Shown piece after piece: positions 31,073-38,024 of a stretch of DNA of 64,000 bases. The translations under genes and the position numbers were made by a program. The notes beneath the pieces are model-generated. The model was not told where the DNA came from. It searched no databases and worked only from the letters and a program-made list of their open reading frames with translations. How positions within the stretch are numbered: the stretch's first letter is position 1; each line of letters opens with the position of its first letter. This DNA comes from Actinomycetota bacterium (GTDB lineage: Bacteria > Actinomycetota > Thermoleophilia > Miltoncostaeales > Miltoncostaeaceae): the NCBI GenBank assembly GCA_963169235.1, contig CAUJCX010000026.1, positions 1 to 64,000 on the forward strand, given 5' to 3'.

Positions 31073-31933
31073 TCAGGCCACCGCCACGATCTGCGTGAGC
31101 GCGCTGGCCGCGTCCAGCCCGTGCTCGCGCCCCTCGGCGACCGCCCGCGCGACGGCGTCCGGCGCGTGGATCCGGGCGTCGTAGACCACCACCACCGACT
31201 CGTCGCCCGCATCGAGGAACGTCGCCTCGCCCAGGGGCGTGTAGCGCGTGGCGCCGATGCCCACCACCAGATGGCCGGGTCGGCCCGCCAGCGCGAGGTA
31301 GTCGCCCACCGGCTCGAGCGGCGTGTCGTCGCTGCCCGCCTGGTGCACGAGGCGGTCGACGATCCAGTCCACCAGCGTGGCGCCCGCGTACGAGTAGTCG
31401 GCAGCGGCGCTGTCGATGCCGTACGCGTGCGCCTCGCCGTCGCGGCGCAGGAAGCTGGCGATGCGCAGGCCCGCCAGGCCGCCGCCGGGCTCCAGGTCGC
31501 CCACGGGCATCAGCGGGCCGAGGCCCTTGGAGCACGGACCCCAGTTCTTCTTGTGGCTGATCTTGGCGGCGTTGGCGCGCCGGATGGAGCAGTCGTTGAA
31601 CGCCCCCAGCGCCACCGGCGTAAGCGCGCAGACCCGGTCGCCGTCATACCGAGTGGCGAAAACCACCCCTACCTCAGGCTCGATCTGAAGGTGATGGTTG
31701 CCGCTCGCGTCGGGCAGGAGCAGGCGGTCCGGCGACACAGGGTACTCGCCCAGGAACCCCGAGAAATGCGGCATATACCAGGGGAAGATGCCCTTGGGCG
31801 CCGTGGCGTCGACGGCCGCCACCCGGGCGAAGTCGGCCGCCTCCCCCGCCTGCTCGAGGTGGCCCGCGAAGTTCCCGGCCACGCCGACGCCCGCGGCCTC
31901 CCGCAGGTCGATGGCCGGCACGCGCGCGGTCAC
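31073..31933 (-). CDS. DUF5718 family protein (fumarylacetoacetase-like)
   Basis: A 286-aa protein I place in DUF5718 by recall of its conserved AGVGVAGNFAGHLEQAGEAA, APKGIFPWYMPHFSGFLGEY, LQIEPEVGVVFATRY and NDCSIRRANAAKISHKKNWG. The family resembles the fumarylacetoacetase fold (cf. EPEVGV with acidic metal ligands), suggesting a metal-dependent hydrolase, but no substrate is known. It begins at GTG 31933, overlapping the stop of the upstream glutamate-cysteine-ligase-like gene by GTGA, so the two are translationally coupled and may act in the same pathway. Confidence 0.8.
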   Translation of the reverse strand: MTARVPAIDLREAAGVGVAGNFAGHLEQAGEAADFARVAAVDATAPKGIFPWYMPHFSGFLGEYPVSPDRLLLPDASGNHHLQIEPEVGVVFATRYDGDRVCALTPVALGAFNDCSIRRANAAKISHKKNWGPCSKGLGPLMPVGDLEPGGGLAGLRIASFLRRDGEAHAYGIDSAAADYSYAGATLVDWIVDRLVHQAGSDDTPLEPVGDYLALAGRPGHLVVGIGATRYTPLGEATFLDAGDESVVVVYDARIHAPDAVARAVAEGREHGLDAASALTQIVAVA

Positions 31934-33324
31934 GACGGCGCGTCGGGGGGCCACGTGTGCACCGGCTCCCCGCCGTACGACAGCTCCATGTACGCCTGCA
32001 ACATGCGGGCCAGCGCGCGCTGGCGCCCGAGGCGCGGTTCGTGGGCCGCGACGGCGTTGCGCTGCCACACCGAGCCGGTCTGGCCGCTGCGCAGGCGCCC
32101 GCGCAGCACGTTCAGCTGCCGCTCGCGCTCGTCGGCCGCGACGCCCGCGGCCTCCAGGCCCACGTCGGCCGCGTCGATGAGGCGCGACAACAGGTCGCGG
32201 GCGGCCACGGGGCGGGGCGACGGGGCCCGGCGGGCCGGCCACAGGAACGTCGCGTCGAGCCCGCGCCGCGCCGCCTCGATGAAGTTGTACTCGGCGTACC
32301 GGAACGGCAGCGCCGCGACCATCCAGTCGGTCTCCTCGGCGATGGCCTCGGTGACGCCCACCAGCAGCGCCGCGTTGGCGATCATGTCGGCCACGGTGGG
32401 GCCCGCCGGCAGGGCCCGCATCTCGAGGCGCAGGCTGCCGCCGTCGCCGGGGTCGTAGATGGCCCGGTTCCACCGCCACACCGTGCCGTGGTGAAGGCGC
32501 AGGTCGGTCAGCTGCGGCAGCTGCCCCGCGGCCATGTCGGCGGCCGGGTCGTCGTCGCCGCACACGGGCAGAAGGGGCGCGTGCAGGGCGACGGTCTCGG
32601 CGAACAGCTCGTGCGCGCCGCTGCGGGCCCAGCCGTGGCCGAACGACACCCGCGCGGGCCTCCAGGCCCCGGTGGGCTCGCGGTCGTCCACCGCCTGGCG
32701 GAACAGCGCCACGCGGGTCTCCTCCCAGCCCAGGCGCCCGCAGAGGAACGGCGAGTTGCCGCACAGGGCCAGCACCGGCCCCGTGGCGATCTGGGCGGCG
32801 TTGAACACCCGCGCGAAGTCGGCCGGCGTGGTCTGCAGGTGCACCTGCAGCGACGTGTTGGCGCCCTCGAGCGTCACGTCGTCGCACGTGATGTCCACGG
32901 TCTCGGGGCCGTCCACCAGCACCCGGAACGGCGCCTGGCGCACCTGACGGATGCGCTCGGACAGCGCCCGGAAGCGTGGCCGGTCGGTGAGCGCGTCGCG
33001 CTGCAGGTCGGCCTCGTCGAGCGTCGGCAGGATGCCCGACATCACCACGTGGCCGCCGCACGTCGCCGCCGCGCGGGACGTCTCGGTGAGCGCCGCCCGC
33101 ATGTCGGCCCCCAGCGCCGAGAACGGCGCCCCGCTGAGCAGCACGGGCACGGAGTTGTACTCCACGTTGAAGCGGTTCAGCTCGACGTCGAGGCGCTCGC
33201 CCCGGTACGCCGCCAGCACGTCGTCGTTGCGCAACAGCGGACGACCGGAGTCGTCCACCAGCGACATCTCGAGCTCCATGCCGAGGCGCTGCGGGCCCTG
33301 GCTGAAGCCGGGCAGCGCCAGCAC
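31930..33324 (-). CDS. GCS2-family carboxylate-amine ligase (glutamate-cysteine ligase-like)
   Basis: At least 464 aa. GCS2 enzymes make gamma-glutamyl bonds with ATP (glutathione synthesis or related). Catalytic-type motifs are QRLGMELEMSLVD, the metal/ATP-binding acidic LDVELNRFNVEYNSVP, GGHVVMSGILPTLDEADLQ, TSLQVHLQTTP, SGAHELFAETVALHAP and GSLRLEMRALPAGPTVADM. Start: GTG at 33324 is the first normal in-frame codon. However, conserved-looking sequence (GREIHTSTFTREDEDRYSAR) continues upstream to an ATC at 33417, just after an in-frame TAA. The true start may thus be an ATC or a mutated ATG. The downstream DUF5718 gene overlaps by 4 bp. Confidence 0.8.
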   Translation of the reverse strand: MLALPGFSQGPQRLGMELEMSLVDDSGRPLLRNDDVLAAYRGERLDVELNRFNVEYNSVPVLLSGAPFSALGADMRAALTETSRAAATCGGHVVMSGILPTLDEADLQRDALTDRPRFRALSERIRQVRQAPFRVLVDGPETVDITCDDVTLEGANTSLQVHLQTTPADFARVFNAAQIATGPVLALCGNSPFLCGRLGWEETRVALFRQAVDDREPTGAWRPARVSFGHGWARSGAHELFAETVALHAPLLPVCGDDDPAADMAAGQLPQLTDLRLHHGTVWRWNRAIYDPGDGGSLRLEMRALPAGPTVADMIANAALLVGVTEAIAEETDWMVAALPFRYAEYNFIEAARRGLDATFLWPARRAPSPRPVAARDLLSRLIDAADVGLEAAGVAADERERQLNVLRGRLRSGQTGSVWQRNAVAAHEPRLGRQRALARMLQAYMELSYGGEPVHTWPPDAPS

Positions 33325-33471: not shown

Positions 33472-34134
33472 TCACGTGGACGCCTGCGCCTCCCGCCACG
33501 TGGTCTCGAGCGCCTCCACGAAAACCTCCTCCGGCTGCGCCCCCGACAGGCCGTACCGGCCGCCCAGCACGTAGAACGGCACGGCGTGGATGCCGAGCCG
33601 CGCGGCCTCGGCGATGTCGGCGTCGACGGCGGGTCCGAAGCGGTGGTCGGCGAGGGCCTCAGCCACGTCGGCGCCCGGGATGCCGGCGCCCTGGCCGATG
33701 CCCCCGAGCACGGCCTGGTCGCCGATGTCGAGCCCGTCGGCGAAGTGGGCCTGCATGAGAGCCTCGTTCACGGCGGGCCCCACGCCGTGCTCGCCCGCGA
33801 GCTGCAGGAGCTCGTGCGCGGGACGGGTGTTGGCCACCACCACGCGGTCGAACGCGAACGCGATGCCCACCTCGGCACCGACACCGGCGACGTGCGCCAT
33901 CATCTGGTCGACGGCGTCGGCGCCCGTGCCCATCTTCTTCATCAGCCGGTCGCGCTCGCTGTCGCCGGACCGCGCGGGCAGGCTCGGGTCGAGCTGGAAG
34001 CTGTGGTACCGCACCACCACGTCCCCGGGGTGCGCGAACCGGGCGACGGCCGCGTCGAGGCGGCGCTTGCCGATGAAGCACCACGGGCACGCGACGTCCG
34101 ACCACACGTCCACCGTCAGGGCGTTCACGTCCAC
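33472..34134 (-). CDS. DsbA-family oxidoreductase, FrnE-like
   Basis: A 220-aa thioredoxin-fold protein of the FrnE-type DsbA group. The active site CPWCFIGKRRL is near the N terminus, after VDVWSDVA. The helical insertion follows and the cis-Pro region is GIHAVPFYVLGG. There is no signal peptide, so it is cytoplasmic, like most FrnE proteins, where dithiol/disulfide exchange or isomerase roles are proposed. GTG at 34134 is chosen because GAGGAGG lies 6 bp before it; GTG at 34128 is the alternative. It overlaps the end of the aldo/keto reductase gene and closes the operon that starts near 37.9 kb. Confidence 0.85.
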   Translation of the reverse strand: MDVNALTVDVWSDVACPWCFIGKRRLDAAVARFAHPGDVVVRYHSFQLDPSLPARSGDSERDRLMKKMGTGADAVDQMMAHVAGVGAEVGIAFAFDRVVVANTRPAHELLQLAGEHGVGPAVNEALMQAHFADGLDIGDQAVLGGIGQGAGIPGADVAEALADHRFGPAVDADIAEAARLGIHAVPFYVLGGRYGLSGAQPEEVFVEALETTWREAQAST

Positions 34135-35096
34135 GAGAGTCCTCCTCGGTAGGTCCAGTAGTCGTCGGCGGGCACCGCGAGATCGTCGAGGTCGTCGGGC
34201 GTGACGCCGACGTCGAGGGCCGCCAGGTTCTCGTGCAACTGGGTGACGGTGGCGGCCCCCGACAGCACGCAGTCGACGAACGGGTGCGCCAGCACCCACG
34301 CCAGGGCCAGCGCGTCCGGGGTGGTGCCGCGGGCGGCGGCGGCCGCGGCGAAGCGCGGGGTGTCGCCCCGCGACGTGAGCCGCCCGTTGGCGACCGCCTC
34401 CTTGACGATGACGCCCATGCCCTGCCGGTGGGCCACCTCCAGCGCCTCGCCCGCCGACGGCTCGAGCACGTTGAACGTGCTCTGCACCGTGTCGAACAGC
34501 CCCAGCCCCACGGCGCGGCGGATGGTGTGGTGCTGGCGCGGCCCGCTGGTGGACAGGCCGATCGCGATGCCCTGGTCCTTCAGGGCCGCCAACCCGTCCA
34601 GCACGTCGGCGTCGTCCAGCACGCCGGAGTCCTCCGTGGCGGAGTGGATCTGGTACAGCCGCACCGCGTCACCGAGAAGCGCCCGGGTCTCGGCCCACTG
34701 GGTGTCGAGGTGGGCGCGGGTGTGCTCCTTCACCTCGTGCACGTCGGCGTCGTCCCGCCAGCCTGCGGTGTAGCGGTAGCCCCATTTCGACCCCACGGTG
34801 ACGCCACGGCGGACGTCCGACGGCAGCGACGCGAGCCACGTGGCGACGAACTCCTCGGCCCTGCCGTAGCTGCGCGCGCAGTCGACGTAGCGCACGCCCG
34901 CGGCGTAGGCGGCGTCCAGCACCTGGTGGGCCCGCTGCCCCAGCGCCGCCGGGTCGCGGTGGCGTCCCAGGTCGTCGCGGTGCCCCAGGTTGATGTAGCC
35001 CGGGCGGCCCAGCGCCGCCATCCCCAGGCCGATGCGGGTGGCGGGCACGCCGCTCGAGCCCAGGACGGTGGCGGGGACGTGGCTCATGCGCTGCAT
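34125..35096 (-). CDS. Aldo/keto reductase
   Basis: A 323-aa AKR with a TIM barrel. VRYVDCARSYGRAEEFVATW carries the conserved Asp and Tyr of the AKR tetrad, SKWGYRYTAG the Lys, and IHSATEDSG begins the DVxLxH-like strand with its His. The NADP-binding end has VLSGAATVTQLHENL. It resembles the AKR groups that act on aldehydes or quinones rather than sugar-specific forms; the substrate is unknown. It lies in the DUF2249 operon, overlapping the DsbA gene, with about 40 bp to the cupin gene upstream. ATG at 35087 is an alternative start. Confidence 0.85.
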   Translation of the reverse strand: MQRMSHVPATVLGSSGVPATRIGLGMAALGRPGYINLGHRDDLGRHRDPAALGQRAHQVLDAAYAAGVRYVDCARSYGRAEEFVATWLASLPSDVRRGVTVGSKWGYRYTAGWRDDADVHEVKEHTRAHLDTQWAETRALLGDAVRLYQIHSATEDSGVLDDADVLDGLAALKDQGIAIGLSTSGPRQHHTIRRAVGLGLFDTVQSTFNVLEPSAGEALEVAHRQGMGVIVKEAVANGRLTSRGDTPRFAAAAAARGTTPDALALAWVLAHPFVDCVLSGAATVTQLHENLAALDVGVTPDDLDDLAVPADDYWTYRGGLSWT

Positions 35097-35135
35097 GCTG
35101 GCACAGCCGCGTGCCCCGCCACCGCGGGGACCGGC

Positions 35136-35447
35136 TCAGGCGACCAGCGTGACCACCAACAGCGTCGGCTCGTGCGCCTCGACCGCGTGCACCATGCCCG
35201 CGGGCAGGTGGAACCACGTACCGGCCGCGGCGTCGTCCAGCTGCCCCTCGGCGTGCCGGAACGCGACCCGCCCCAGGGCGACGTGGATGTTGACCGGCCC
35301 GGGGGCGGCGTGCTCGGCCAGGCTGCTGCCCGCCGCCATGCCGATGGCCACGACCCGCTGGGAGTCGTCGCGGTACACGGCCTGTGCCTTGGTGCCGTCG
35401 GCGGGGATGAGGCTCGCGTCGAGCGACGCGGTGACGACGTCGCTCAC
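35136..35447 (-). CDS. Small cupin-domain protein
   Basis: A 103-aa single-domain cupin. Motif 1 is recognisable in GSSLAEHAAPGPVNIHVALGRVAF with His at two positions, and motif 2 in WFHLPAGMVHAVEAHEPTLLVVT. It probably binds a metal or small molecule; cupins in such clusters may bind nitric oxide or redox signals, but that is inference. GTG at 35447 overlaps the DUF2249 gene's stop by GTGA, so it is translated with the upstream gene. Confidence 0.85.
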   Translation of the reverse strand: MSDVVTASLDASLIPADGTKAQAVYRDDSQRVVAIGMAAGSSLAEHAAPGPVNIHVALGRVAFRHAEGQLDDAAAGTWFHLPAGMVHAVEAHEPTLLVVTLVA

Positions 35448-35671
35448 GTCCGGCCGATCCGCACGCGCCACACGGGGCCCTGCTCGAGGTAGTCCCACGA
35501 GAACGCGCCGTCGTGCTCGGCCTCGAACTGGTAGCGCAGCGGCACCGGGTCGTGGTCGTTGACCAGCTCGAACGACTCGCCCGGGGCCAGCGCCTCGAAC
35601 GTCGAGAAGATCAGCGGGTGGCGTTCGCGCGGCACGATGGTGCGCACGTCGATGGTGGTCGATTCGGTCAT
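35444..35671 (-). CDS. DUF2249 domain protein (first)
   Basis: A 75-aa single DUF2249 domain (SirA/TusA-like alpha/beta fold). It has TIDVRTIVPRERHPLIFSTF, PGESFELVNDHDPVPLRYQF and a C-terminal WDYLEQGPVWRVRIGR, the family's typical shape. DUF2249 genes commonly sit with hemerythrin, denitrification and NO-stress genes, which is the main hint of function. It overlaps by 4 bp with both the upstream 12-TM gene and the downstream cupin gene. Confidence 0.9.
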   Translation of the reverse strand: MTESTTIDVRTIVPRERHPLIFSTFEALAPGESFELVNDHDPVPLRYQFEAEHDGAFSWDYLEQGPVWRVRIGRT

Positions 35672-37050
35672 GCGTGGGCTCCTTGGTGGGGAACGTGATG
35701 TGGGTGGGCCGCCTGGGCGGTGACCTTCGGCGTGACGGTGATGCAGATCACGACGGCGACCAGCACGGTGAGCGCGGCGGCCGCGAGCGCGAGCGCGCCC
35801 GCGAGGATCAGCGCGGACGTGGCCGACGCGACTCCGGCCACGACCAGCACGAGGCCCAGCGCGAAGGCCGCGGCCTCCACCAGGGCCAGTCGCGCGGGGT
35901 ACATGTCGGTGAGGCGGGGCGCGCCGGGGGTGCCCGCCAGATGCGCGTAGCGCCCGGTCCAGACCAGCATCGGGACGACCTTGAAGACGTGACCGGACGT
36001 GACCCCGCCGCCGAAGCCGATGAGCACCAGCAGCACCGCGACCACGCCCGCGCGCGCGGTGCCGACGACGCCGAACGCGGCCAGCAGCGCCACGCACGCG
36101 GCGGCCACCGCACACGCGACGCCGGCGACCAGGTGCATCAGCGGGGCCTCCAGGCTGCGGCGCCGGTGGCGGCCCACGCTGACCAGGAACGACCCGGCGA
36201 TGAGGGCGGCGCCGGCCAGCACCACGAAGCCCGCGTACGTGATCGCCTCCACCTGCACCAGCACCCCGGCGCACGTCAGCACCACGCCCACGTGCCACGC
36301 GCCCAGGGCCCACGCGCCGTCGCGGGCGCGGTACCCGTGCGACAGGGCGAACATGGGTCCCAGGCGCAGCGCGATGGCCATGATCATGCCGCCGATCCAT
36401 CCCAGCAGGGCGGCGGCGGCGTGCGCCTCGACCACGCGGGTGTGGGCGGTGCCCAGGAACGGGTCGCCGCGGTCGGCCGCCAGCACCAGGCCCACGCCCA
36501 CCACGACGGCGAGCCAGAAGCCGGACATCGCCAGGCCCCGGCCGGTGCCCCCCAGGCCGGTGGGGCTGCGATGGGCACGCCACAGCGCCGCCGCCAGATC
36601 GACCACGACGGTGAGGAGACCCAGCGCCAGCAGGACGCCCCCGGCCGCGGACAGGGCCGTGACACCCTGTCCGAGGCCGGCGGCGAGGCTCGATGCGCCG
36701 ACGATCAGGGCGACCCCCGCCCCGCATTGCCGAACGGTCGAGCCCACGCGCTGGCGCAGGATCACCGGGACCAGCTGCAGCATCGCCGCGACGATCGTCA
36801 CGGTGAGGAAGGCCAGCCCGTAGACGTGCACGGCGGCCAGGATGCCGGGCGCGGCGTACGCGGCCCGCGCCAGGTTGTCCGCCGACAGCGCCAGCACCAC
36901 CAGGGCCACCACGTGGGCCACGCAGGCCGCGGCGATCATGCCCGTCGGCAGCGGCCACGGGGGCCCTCCGACGGTGCCCTGACGCGCCAGCGTGCGCTCG
37001 CCCGGGGTCTTGCACCCGGCCGAACCCGCCGCCGACTTCCCCTCCGCCAT
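35668..37050 (-). CDS. 12-TM membrane protein, haem-copper oxidase/NnrS-like
   Basis: A 460-aa protein with about 12 membrane segments. Haem-oxidase-like patterns are seen: AAVHVYGLAFLTVTIVAAML then QLVPVI, VEAHAAAALLGWIGGMIMAI then LRLGPMF, and GHVFKVVPMLVWTGRYAHLA. Intramembrane His residues (HVYG, EAHAA, GHVFK, RYAHL) could bind haem or a metal. It lacks the full set of six His of true oxidase subunit I. I infer a role in NO or redox handling, as for NnrS, but family placement is by resemblance only. It starts 1 bp after the Fe-S factor gene stop and overlaps the first DUF2249 gene by 4 bp. Confidence 0.65.
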   Translation of the reverse strand: MAEGKSAAGSAGCKTPGERTLARQGTVGGPPWPLPTGMIAAACVAHVVALVVLALSADNLARAAYAAPGILAAVHVYGLAFLTVTIVAAMLQLVPVILRQRVGSTVRQCGAGVALIVGASSLAAGLGQGVTALSAAGGVLLALGLLTVVVDLAAALWRAHRSPTGLGGTGRGLAMSGFWLAVVVGVGLVLAADRGDPFLGTAHTRVVEAHAAAALLGWIGGMIMAIALRLGPMFALSHGYRARDGAWALGAWHVGVVLTCAGVLVQVEAITYAGFVVLAGAALIAGSFLVSVGRHRRRSLEAPLMHLVAGVACAVAAACVALLAAFGVVGTARAGVVAVLLVLIGFGGGVTSGHVFKVVPMLVWTGRYAHLAGTPGAPRLTDMYPARLALVEAAAFALGLVLVVAGVASATSALILAGALALAAAALTVLVAVVICITVTPKVTAQAAHPHHVPHQGAHA

Positions 37051-37051
37051 C

Positions 37052-37339
37052 TCAGCCCACCGTGCCGGCGCCCGAGGTGCCGATGCGGTCGGGCGTCCAC
37101 GGGGGGTCCCACACCACGTCGACCTCGACGGGGGGTTCGCCGGGGAGCTCGAGGGCCCGCCGCACGCCGCCGGTGATGGCCTCGTGCAGGGGGCACCCCG
37201 GCGTGGTGAGGGTCATGCGGATGTACGTGCTGTCGGGCGCCAGGTCCACCTCGTACACCAGGCCTAGCTCGACGATGTCCATGCCCAGCTCGGGATCGAT
37301 GACGGTCGCGAGCCGCTCCCACGCCTCCTCGGTGGTCAT
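37052..37339 (-). CDS. MIP18/DUF59 metal-sulfur cluster assembly factor
   Basis: A 95-aa protein of the PaaD/SufT/MIP18 type. The signature is EAWERLATVIDPELGMDIVE then LGLVYEVDL, with TLTTPGCPLHEAITGGV carrying the conserved Cys. It probably aids maturation of Fe-S proteins. In this operon the client could be a haem or Fe-S protein, perhaps the adjoining membrane protein, but none is proven. ATG at 37339 overlaps the upstream DUF2249 gene's stop by ATGA, a coupled arrangement. Confidence 0.9.
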   Translation of the reverse strand: MTTEEAWERLATVIDPELGMDIVELGLVYEVDLAPDSTYIRMTLTTPGCPLHEAITGGVRRALELPGEPPVEVDVVWDPPWTPDRIGTSGAGTVG

Positions 37340-37584
37340 GCGGCGCCCTTGTGCCACGCGCCACGCCAGATGGTGGTGACCGTGCCACGCTCGTCCTCGG
37401 CCAGCCGGTACTGGTAGCCGCGGGCGTCGAGCAGTGGCAGCAGGAACACCGGCACGCGGTCGTTCAGCTGCACGAGGCGTTCCCCGTCCGGCAGGGTCTC
37501 CAACGCCTCCAGGGTGAGCTCCATCGGCTGGGGCGGGGTCAGGCCCCGCACGTCGAGCTCCACATCCCCCACTGCCCTTTCCAT
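37336..37584 (-). CDS. DUF2249 domain protein (second)
   Basis: An 82-aa DUF2249 domain: LDVRGLTPPQPMELTLEALE, then TLPDGERLVQLNDRVPVFLLP and RGYQYRLAEDERG. The N-terminal VELDVRGL is close to the TusA/SirA start, but the Cys of TusA is replaced, so sulfur transfer through that Cys is not expected. ATG at 37584 shares one base with the stop of the third DUF2249 gene, and the MIP18 gene overlaps its end. The gene sits between its paralogue and the Fe-S factor. Confidence 0.9.
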   Translation of the reverse strand: MERAVGDVELDVRGLTPPQPMELTLEALETLPDGERLVQLNDRVPVFLLPLLDARGYQYRLAEDERGTVTTIWRGAWHKGAA

Positions 37585-37868
37585 CACTGCCTCCAGTACC
37601 ACGTCGTCCAGTCGTCGGGAGCGACCTCCGCCACCGAGTGCGCGAAGCCCTTCTTCGCCAGCACGCTGTGCAGCGGCACCGGCTCGAACGGGCTGCGCAA
37701 CTCGAGCGCCGTGCCGTCGGGCAGCGATTCGACCGCGTCCATGATCAGGCGGAAGGGCTCCTCGCCGCGCGCCAGCGCGGGCCGCACGTCAAGCACGCTC
37801 ACCGGACCAGGAGGCCGTCCGCCCGCCTCGTCGGTGCGGGACGTCACGTCGGTGGATTCGGGCGGCAT
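37584..37868 (-). CDS. DUF2249 domain protein (third, first in operon)
   Basis: A 94-aa protein with a short polar leader and then a DUF2249 domain: VSVLDVRPALARGEEPFRLI, MDAVESLPDGTALELRSPFE then PVPLHSVLAKKGFAHS, and a C-terminal WTTWYWRQ. It is the promoter-proximal gene of the minus-strand operon. An AT-rich region with a 13-bp palindrome lies about 70 bp upstream. Three DUF2249 paralogues in one operon suggest several partner-specific subunits of one system. Confidence 0.9.
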   Translation of the reverse strand: MPPESTDVTSRTDEAGGRPPGPVSVLDVRPALARGEEPFRLIMDAVESLPDGTALELRSPFEPVPLHSVLAKKGFAHSVAEVAPDDWTTWYWRQ

Positions 37869-37937: not shown

Positions 37938-37950
37938 GGATAAATTATCC
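37938..37950. promoter_or_regulatory. 13-bp palindrome in an AT-rich control region
   Basis: GGATAA-A-TTATCC is a perfect inverted repeat with one central base, inside an AT-rich patch (about 37905-37952) that stands out in this GC-rich DNA. It lies about 70 bp before the DUF2249 operon start and 75 bp before aceE, so it could control either direction. It does not match the FNR half-site pattern TTGAT-N4-ATCAA well; a NO-, redox- or iron-responsive regulator is possible. Confidence 0.5.
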
Positions 37951-38024
37951 GTGGCCTCCGGCGCGAAAGGCTACGTGCTGACGGGTTGTCTGGAACCCGG
38001 CGCGGGCGCGCGTAGGATGTGGTC

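Follow-up and report, generated by a model that had tools for sequence, protein, structure and literature searches.

A candidate Drp-type accessory module of nitrate/NO respiration, with a membrane protein of predicted haem-copper oxidase fold, in a Miltoncostaeaceae genome

The window analysed here is a 64,000-nucleotide stretch of contig CAUJCX010000026.1 (assembly GCA_963169235.1) from a member of the Miltoncostaeaceae (Actinomycetota), and it carries eight genes on the minus strand at 33472-37868. The first five encode two DUF2249 proteins (A and B), a MIP18/DUF59 protein, a membrane protein with 12 transmembrane (TM) helices, here called MEM, and a third DUF2249 protein (C). On balance we regard these five genes as a Drp-type accessory module of nitrate/nitric oxide (NO) respiration, comparable to DrpA and DrpB of Thermus thermophilus, with MEM as a candidate anchor or transducer. 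An accessory role in nitrate/NO respiration is very likely, and the idea that MEM works as an anchor or receptor is put forward tentatively. The argument is carried by gene content, gene order, conservation across phyla, the predicted fold of MEM and the genomic setting. The original prediction had taken the operon for an undescribed system. This holds for the link to MEM and MIP18, which is new, and not for the DUF2249 parts, which correspond to Thermus proteins already studied by deletion (PMC6282519). The domains, too, were known before; what is added is the tie of DrpA/DrpB-type proteins to a haem-copper oxidase (HCO) homologue and MIP18 across phyla, and no publication joining the three as one module was found in the part of the literature covered.

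Counterparts in Thermus and in denitrification clusters

The DUF2249-C protein is of the single-domain DrpA type, with 69% identity over 70 aa to Thermus DrpA and 58% to the Sinorhizobium DUF2249 protein. DUF2249-A and DUF2249-B together correspond to the two DUF2249 domains of DrpB: A is 45% identical to the first domain both in DrpB and in the twin-DUF2249 protein of Sinorhizobium, and B is 39% and 42% identical, respectively, to the second, TusA-like one. DrpB is a single protein with an N-terminal DUF1858 domain, whereas the window has two genes without it. Sulphur carriers of the TusA family have a catalytic Cys in the CPxP motif; this position reads PPQP in DUF2249-B and PPEP in its relatives, so that the sulphur-carrier Cys is missing. 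The MIP18 protein (51% identity to the Thermus homologue, 41% to that of Sinorhizobium) shares with MIP18/DUF59 Fe-S assembly factors the FeS_assembly_P domain and the conserved Cys of the TxxGCP motif, here TTPGCP.

In T. thermophilus, the genes run narGHJIKT, drpA, drpB, a 4-TM COX1-like protein, protoglobin, the MEM homologue (profile E 4e-25) and MIP18, so that homologues of both MEM and MIP18 belong to the drp cluster itself. Strain SNM7-6 has the same run from drp to MIP18 with nar not adjacent. On the TTHNAR1 plasmid (NZ_LR027520.1), a transposase gene (L123 8609-9454) parts drpB from the four genes that follow; it is absent after drpB in SNM3-3 and SNM7-6. The run is unbroken there, an extended drp operon of which the published drpAB study may have overlooked the remainder. 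That study (PMC6282519) treats drpAB as bicistronic and, in the sections covered, does not mention MEM or MIP18. It reports that drpAB expression requires anoxia plus nitrate, that in the double mutant nitrate dependence disappears along with most nitrate reductase (NR) activity though NarG is made, and that DrpA is periplasmic, while DrpB is cytoplasmic and partly membrane-associated without a TM helix. For Thermus, the literature thus makes DrpA and DrpB necessary for nitrate-dependent control and NR activity. The small 4-TM COX1-like protein, a single-unit oxidase homologue found at L123 9493-9864 in the Thermus cluster, also occurs beside MEM in one actinobacterial locus (L015 9095-9577) and, in the window genome, on another contig (C4; L114 7889-8344).

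The second setting is in Pseudomonadota. On pSymA of Sinorhizobium meliloti 1021, a DUF2249 gene is followed by the MEM homologue, twin DUF2249 and MIP18, and these four lie between nnrS/nirK and hemN/norDQBC. The MEM homologue there matches the window protein at BLAST E 2e-10 (26% identity) and, by profile comparison, at E 9e-24; tblastn of the window MEM against the plasmids gave nothing convincing, and the link was made via pSymA. All four genes also occur in Shinella, R. phaseoli, S. meliloti ml56, Rhizobium CB3090 and Roseateles (annotated plasmids), likewise in denitrification clusters with nirK/nnrS/nor as neighbours. The three genes MEM, twin DUF2249 and MIP18 stand directly before nirK in Paracoccus and close to nos genes in Mesorhizobium and Aminobacter. 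In Mesorhizobium, DUF1858 is a separate gene. The DUF1858 gene of B. diazoefficiens, located between nnrR and hemN2, is 29-fold lower in the nnrR mutant (PMC6710368), which fits NO-responsive expression of this DrpB-type domain. Haloferax mediterranei has four DUF2249 genes, located close to nar, nir/nor and nos and all induced under denitrification, but no pair of MEM and MIP18 is reported in the passages covered of that paper (PMC11218638). The nitrate/NO link made in the original prediction is borne out, and the nitrate/NO setting is well supported.

The membrane protein MEM

In Pfam and NCBIfam, MEM has no family at E<=1, and its homologues are annotated merely as "hypothetical protein". 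A scan of 14 family members returned weak COX1 and ccoN matches in a few of them and nothing else, and neither MEM nor DUF2249-C has a significant relative in a sequence search of solved structures. The AlphaFold model, built from five sequences, has 12 long helices (pLDDT 78.6, pTM 0.78), and Foldseek against the PDB matches it to subunit I of respiratory enzymes: cbb3 CcoN 8smr_E (TM-score 0.72/0.71, E 1e-3) and qNOR (E 7e-4). MEM is therefore predicted to have the fold of HCO subunit I, in line with the likeness to oxidase subunit I that had been supposed for it, and haem binding is a candidate property that may follow from this modelled fold.

The second likeness supposed at first, to NnrS, found no backing in Pfam or in profile comparison. 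MEM was rejected as NnrS, as none of 14 members matched PF05940 at E<=10 and the window genome gave no match to it either. A comparison of the MEM family with S. meliloti NnrS by hhalign gave a probability of 1.5%, and one with NorB of the same pSymA region 0.3%, both of limited power since the target was a single sequence. The 12-TMH haem-copper-oxidase-homology (HCOH) proteins, NnrS among them, were reportedly treated by Pei et al. 2014, who are said to have noted the association with DUF2249; they are reported to have 12 TM helices, about two conserved His and a single haem. MEM may resemble them in its 12 TM helices, its predicted subunit I fold, its few conserved His and its denitrification setting, but has no match to PF05940 or any other curated family. 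The link of DUF2249 to HCO homologues is likewise credited to Pei et al. 2014 in PMC11218638, and no literature linking DUF59/MIP18 with NnrS and denitrification was found within the partial coverage.

Among the aligned MEM members, His75 (TM2) is present in 28/28 and His210 (TM6) in 26/28. The position of His354 (TM10) is occupied by His in most Actinomycetota, by Gln in rhizobia and, on inspection of the sequence, by Met in Thermus. Compared with the six-His site of oxidases and nitric oxide reductases (NOR), MEM keeps the TM2 and TM6 His, lacks the TM7 pair and has at most one His and no HxH in TM10. With the TM7 pair and the TM10 HxH missing, no standard binuclear centre would be expected.

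These residues bear on whether MEM is itself an enzyme, a NO reductase or oxidase with the small proteins as subunits or assembly factors. The fold match to cbb3 and qNOR subunit I and the adjoining nirK and nor genes would suit such a role. However, MEM lacks the paired His of TM7 and the HxH of TM10 found in subunit I (CcoN, qNOR, cNOR), profile searches gave nothing significant against NorB or solved chains, and the same clusters contain dedicated NOR genes, as does the window genome with a sNOR-like gene. We consider an enzymatic MEM very improbable.

Distribution in Actinomycetota and the readings weighed

The family was detected in 8/61 relatives, 24/399 genomes of the class and 15/397 genomes of a phylum sample. 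A search of the genome contigs with the single MEM protein found nothing, and one with the family alignment recovered four Thermoleophilia/actinobacterial loci; the named relatives carrying the operon are Thermoleophilia metagenome-assembled genomes. Other Thermoleophilia with the gene set are L015, L016, L017 and L085, with MEM at 46-50% identity to that of the window. L015, L016 and L017 share the order fused DUF2249-A/B, MIP18, MEM, which DUF2249-C continues in L016 and L017; in L085 the contig stops inside MEM after the same beginning. Because the first four or five genes are found side by side both in relatives and in other phyla, the clustering is not due to chance. The original prediction had counted all eight genes as one set and named genes kept apart in related genomes as an observation that would speak against it. 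In the relatives, the first five stay together, and the aldo/keto reductase and DsbA genes stand apart.

Among 26 MEM loci examined, the recurring neighbours are DUF2249, MIP18, helix-turn-helix (HTH) regulators and hemerythrin. MEM lies directly 3' of narGHJI in L067 (847-8688), about 10 bp from narI, and shares a locus with a NirK-like gene in L018. A DrpB-like protein with DUF1858 and two DUF2249 domains stands beside MEM and MIP18 in L076 and L077, the latter assigned via its similarity to L076. A hemerythrin-domain gene adjoins MEM in L072 and is one gene away in L079, and L081 has a fusion of hemerythrin and DUF2249. The HTH regulators beside MEM or DUF2249 genes repeatedly have a C-terminal CPF...C/H motif (L016 4725-6184, L018 9312-10049, L019 11489-12169, L091 6462-7181). 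This motif recalls SufR-like Fe-S regulators.

The co-occurrence proposed at the outset was examined in the 399 class genomes, with phylogeny ignored. DUF2249 is found in 15/24 genomes with MEM and 27/375 of the others (p=1e-10), narG above cut-off in 11/24 against 50/375 (p=2e-4), and narG accompanies DUF2249 in 30/42 against 31/357 (p=7e-19).

The window genome comprises 2.9 Mb in 65 contigs. Among its genes are narGHJI, together with one for a NarK-like transporter, and a gene for a NirK-like cupredoxin protein that scores below the curated cut-off. Contig C36 (L111 5188-7209) contains an oxidase-like subunit I whose TM6 reads HSVAN, Asn replacing the usual Tyr, beside a CuA-type subunit II. 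A published table gives Asn for sNOR and CuANor (PMC8756737), and from its sequence this pair is likely a sNOR-type NO reductase. Since nar, NirK-like and sNOR-like genes are encoded, NO chemistry appears plausible in this organism. A second DUF2249 pair of the same genome (contig C21, L006 7293-7759), whose first member resembles DUF2249-C, is located upstream of a large proline-dehydrogenase-like gene.

The neighbours suit two further explanations of the module. One is protection of iron and repair of Fe-S clusters against NO, in which MEM would act in the manner of NnrS and limit dinitrosyl-iron complexes, MIP18 and the DUF2249 proteins would rebuild Fe-S enzymes, and regulation would be secondary. 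MIP18 is a Fe-S targeting factor, NnrS, also a 12-TM HCO-like protein, guards the iron pool without removing NO (PMC9246220), and hemerythrin genes (L072, L079), the hemerythrin-DUF2249 fusion and, in Paracoccus, ric are found near MEM or DUF2249 genes. But the same rhizobial clusters encode NnrS separately, so that it is not simply replaced, and the Thermus drpAB data indicate nitrate-dependent expression and NR activity; we hold this explanation to be rather unlikely, although it is the strongest of the rivals. The other, somewhat less probable again, is that the five genes encode maturation factors dedicated to one enzyme (NarGHI, or NirK in alphaproteobacteria) without any sensing. The position before nirK in Paracoccus, after narI in L067 and after nar in Thermus agrees with it, as does the low NR activity of the drpAB double mutant despite NarG production (PMC6282519). 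Against it, the partner enzyme varies by taxon (nar, nirK, nos), Fe-S clusters are lacking in NirK, and narG was not seen in some of the genomes with MEM.

Several observations weigh against the Drp-type module as well. In the window genome, its neighbours are pyruvate dehydrogenase genes and nar is absent there; the nar operon is on contig C18 and the module on C26, while Drp lies at the nar operon in Thermus. The DUF1858 domain of DrpB has no Pfam match anywhere in the operon. About half of the MEM loci in Actinomycetota are without DUF2249, MIP18, HTH or hemerythrin neighbours, and some MEM-bearing relatives (G001, G010, G053), whose genomes are incomplete, have no narG above the curated cut-off. 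The two near-universal His of MEM are not the usual TM2/TM10 bis-His haem pair, and His354 is exchanged in rhizobia and Thermus. Finally, the denitrification cluster of Agrobacterium fabrum (L125 5602-6519) still has the DUF2249 and twin-DUF2249 genes but neither MEM nor MIP18, indicating that the parts can function on their own; the absence of both suggests that MEM and MIP18 were lost as a pair.

In the mechanism that we propose for the Drp-type module, MEM would bind haem or a metal, serve the DUF2249 proteins as a receptor or anchor for their assembly at the membrane, and sense NO, nitrate-derived species or the redox state. The DUF2249 proteins would relay its signal to regulation and to the maturation of those iron enzymes that serve nitrate respiration, where MIP18 would supply or repair Fe-S cofactors. 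The complex, the haem binding and the direction of signal or cofactor flow are what we infer here. It is conceivable, though doubtful, that an ancient membrane-based complex for nitrate/NO sensing or cofactor maturation is common to Actinomycetota, Pseudomonadota and Deinococcota, in which a HCO-derived 12-TM receptor recruits DrpA/DrpB-type DUF2249 adaptors and MIP18. If so, the DUF2249 family would gain a function. DUF2249 is widespread in nitrate/NO clusters, the Drp work leaves the signal route from the membrane to DrpB, which has no TM helix, unexplained, and the locus offers MEM and MIP18 as candidate missing partners of DrpA and DrpB. The question is directly testable because MEM and MIP18 can be deleted in T. 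thermophilus and S. meliloti 1021.

Gene layout, upstream region and flanking genes

Gene calls and Pfam confirm the eight minus-strand genes, their tight junctions and the wider gap before the reductase gene just as first described (Table 1). The overlap is 1 bp between A and B and 4 bp each at B/MIP18, MEM/C and C/cupin; gaps are 1 bp at MIP18/MEM, about 40-50 bp at cupin/reductase and about 5 bp at reductase/DsbA. The window has about 74% G+C.

Table 1. Genes of the operon in order of transcription, and the upstream palindrome
Feature	Position	Strand	Basis
DUF2249-A, 94 aa	37584..37868	-	Pfam DUF2249, 57.5 bits
DUF2249-B, 82 aa	37336..37584	-	Pfam DUF2249, 65 bits; also TusA, 31 bits
MIP18/FeS_assembly_P (DUF59), 95 aa	37052..37339	-	PF01883, 67 bits
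MEM, 12-TM haem-copper-oxidase-homology membrane protein, 460 aa	35668..37050	-	
DUF2249-C, DrpA-like, 75 aa	35444..35671	-	Pfam, 107 bits
Small cupin, 103 aa	35136..35447	-	Cupin_7
Aldo/keto reductase	34125..35084/35096	-	Pfam
DsbA-fold protein, FrnE-like, CPWC	33472..34119	-	Pfam DSBA
Perfect palindrome GGATAATTTATCC	37938..37950	.	DUF2249-A/aceE divergent intergenic region

The last three genes raise the alternative of a general redox or oxidative-stress operon that includes reductase, DsbA and cupin and is not specific to nitrogen oxides. The closeness of all eight genes and an upstream region common with the pyruvate dehydrogenase genes favour it, but the reductase and DsbA are not retained with the set in relatives and the conserved settings elsewhere are denitrification clusters, which leaves it quite improbable. 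Both genes are absent from the loci of the three closest relatives; they were rejected as core parts for this reason and are probably lineage-specific additions. A cupin occurs at one of these three, and the small cupin of the window is an optional accessory. At L016, cupin and HTH regulator genes precede the set at its 5' end and genes for the molybdenum cofactor follow it; in the same-genus genome G001, another cupin stands at the 5' end of the same operon, and G025 has a similar one near a DUF2249 gene.

Upstream, the divergent pyruvate dehydrogenase E1 gene (aceE) lies at 38019. The palindrome GGATAATTTATCC between it and DUF2249-A is a possible operator; it has no second copy in the genome at <=1 mismatch, and no operator common to the regions upstream of the relatives' operons and of the nar, NOR and NirK-like genes of this genome was seen. 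The operon is followed closely, at 31073-33324 on the same strand, by two more genes: a DUF5718 gene and a GCS2-like gene (glutamate-cysteine ligase family) overlap by 4 bp.

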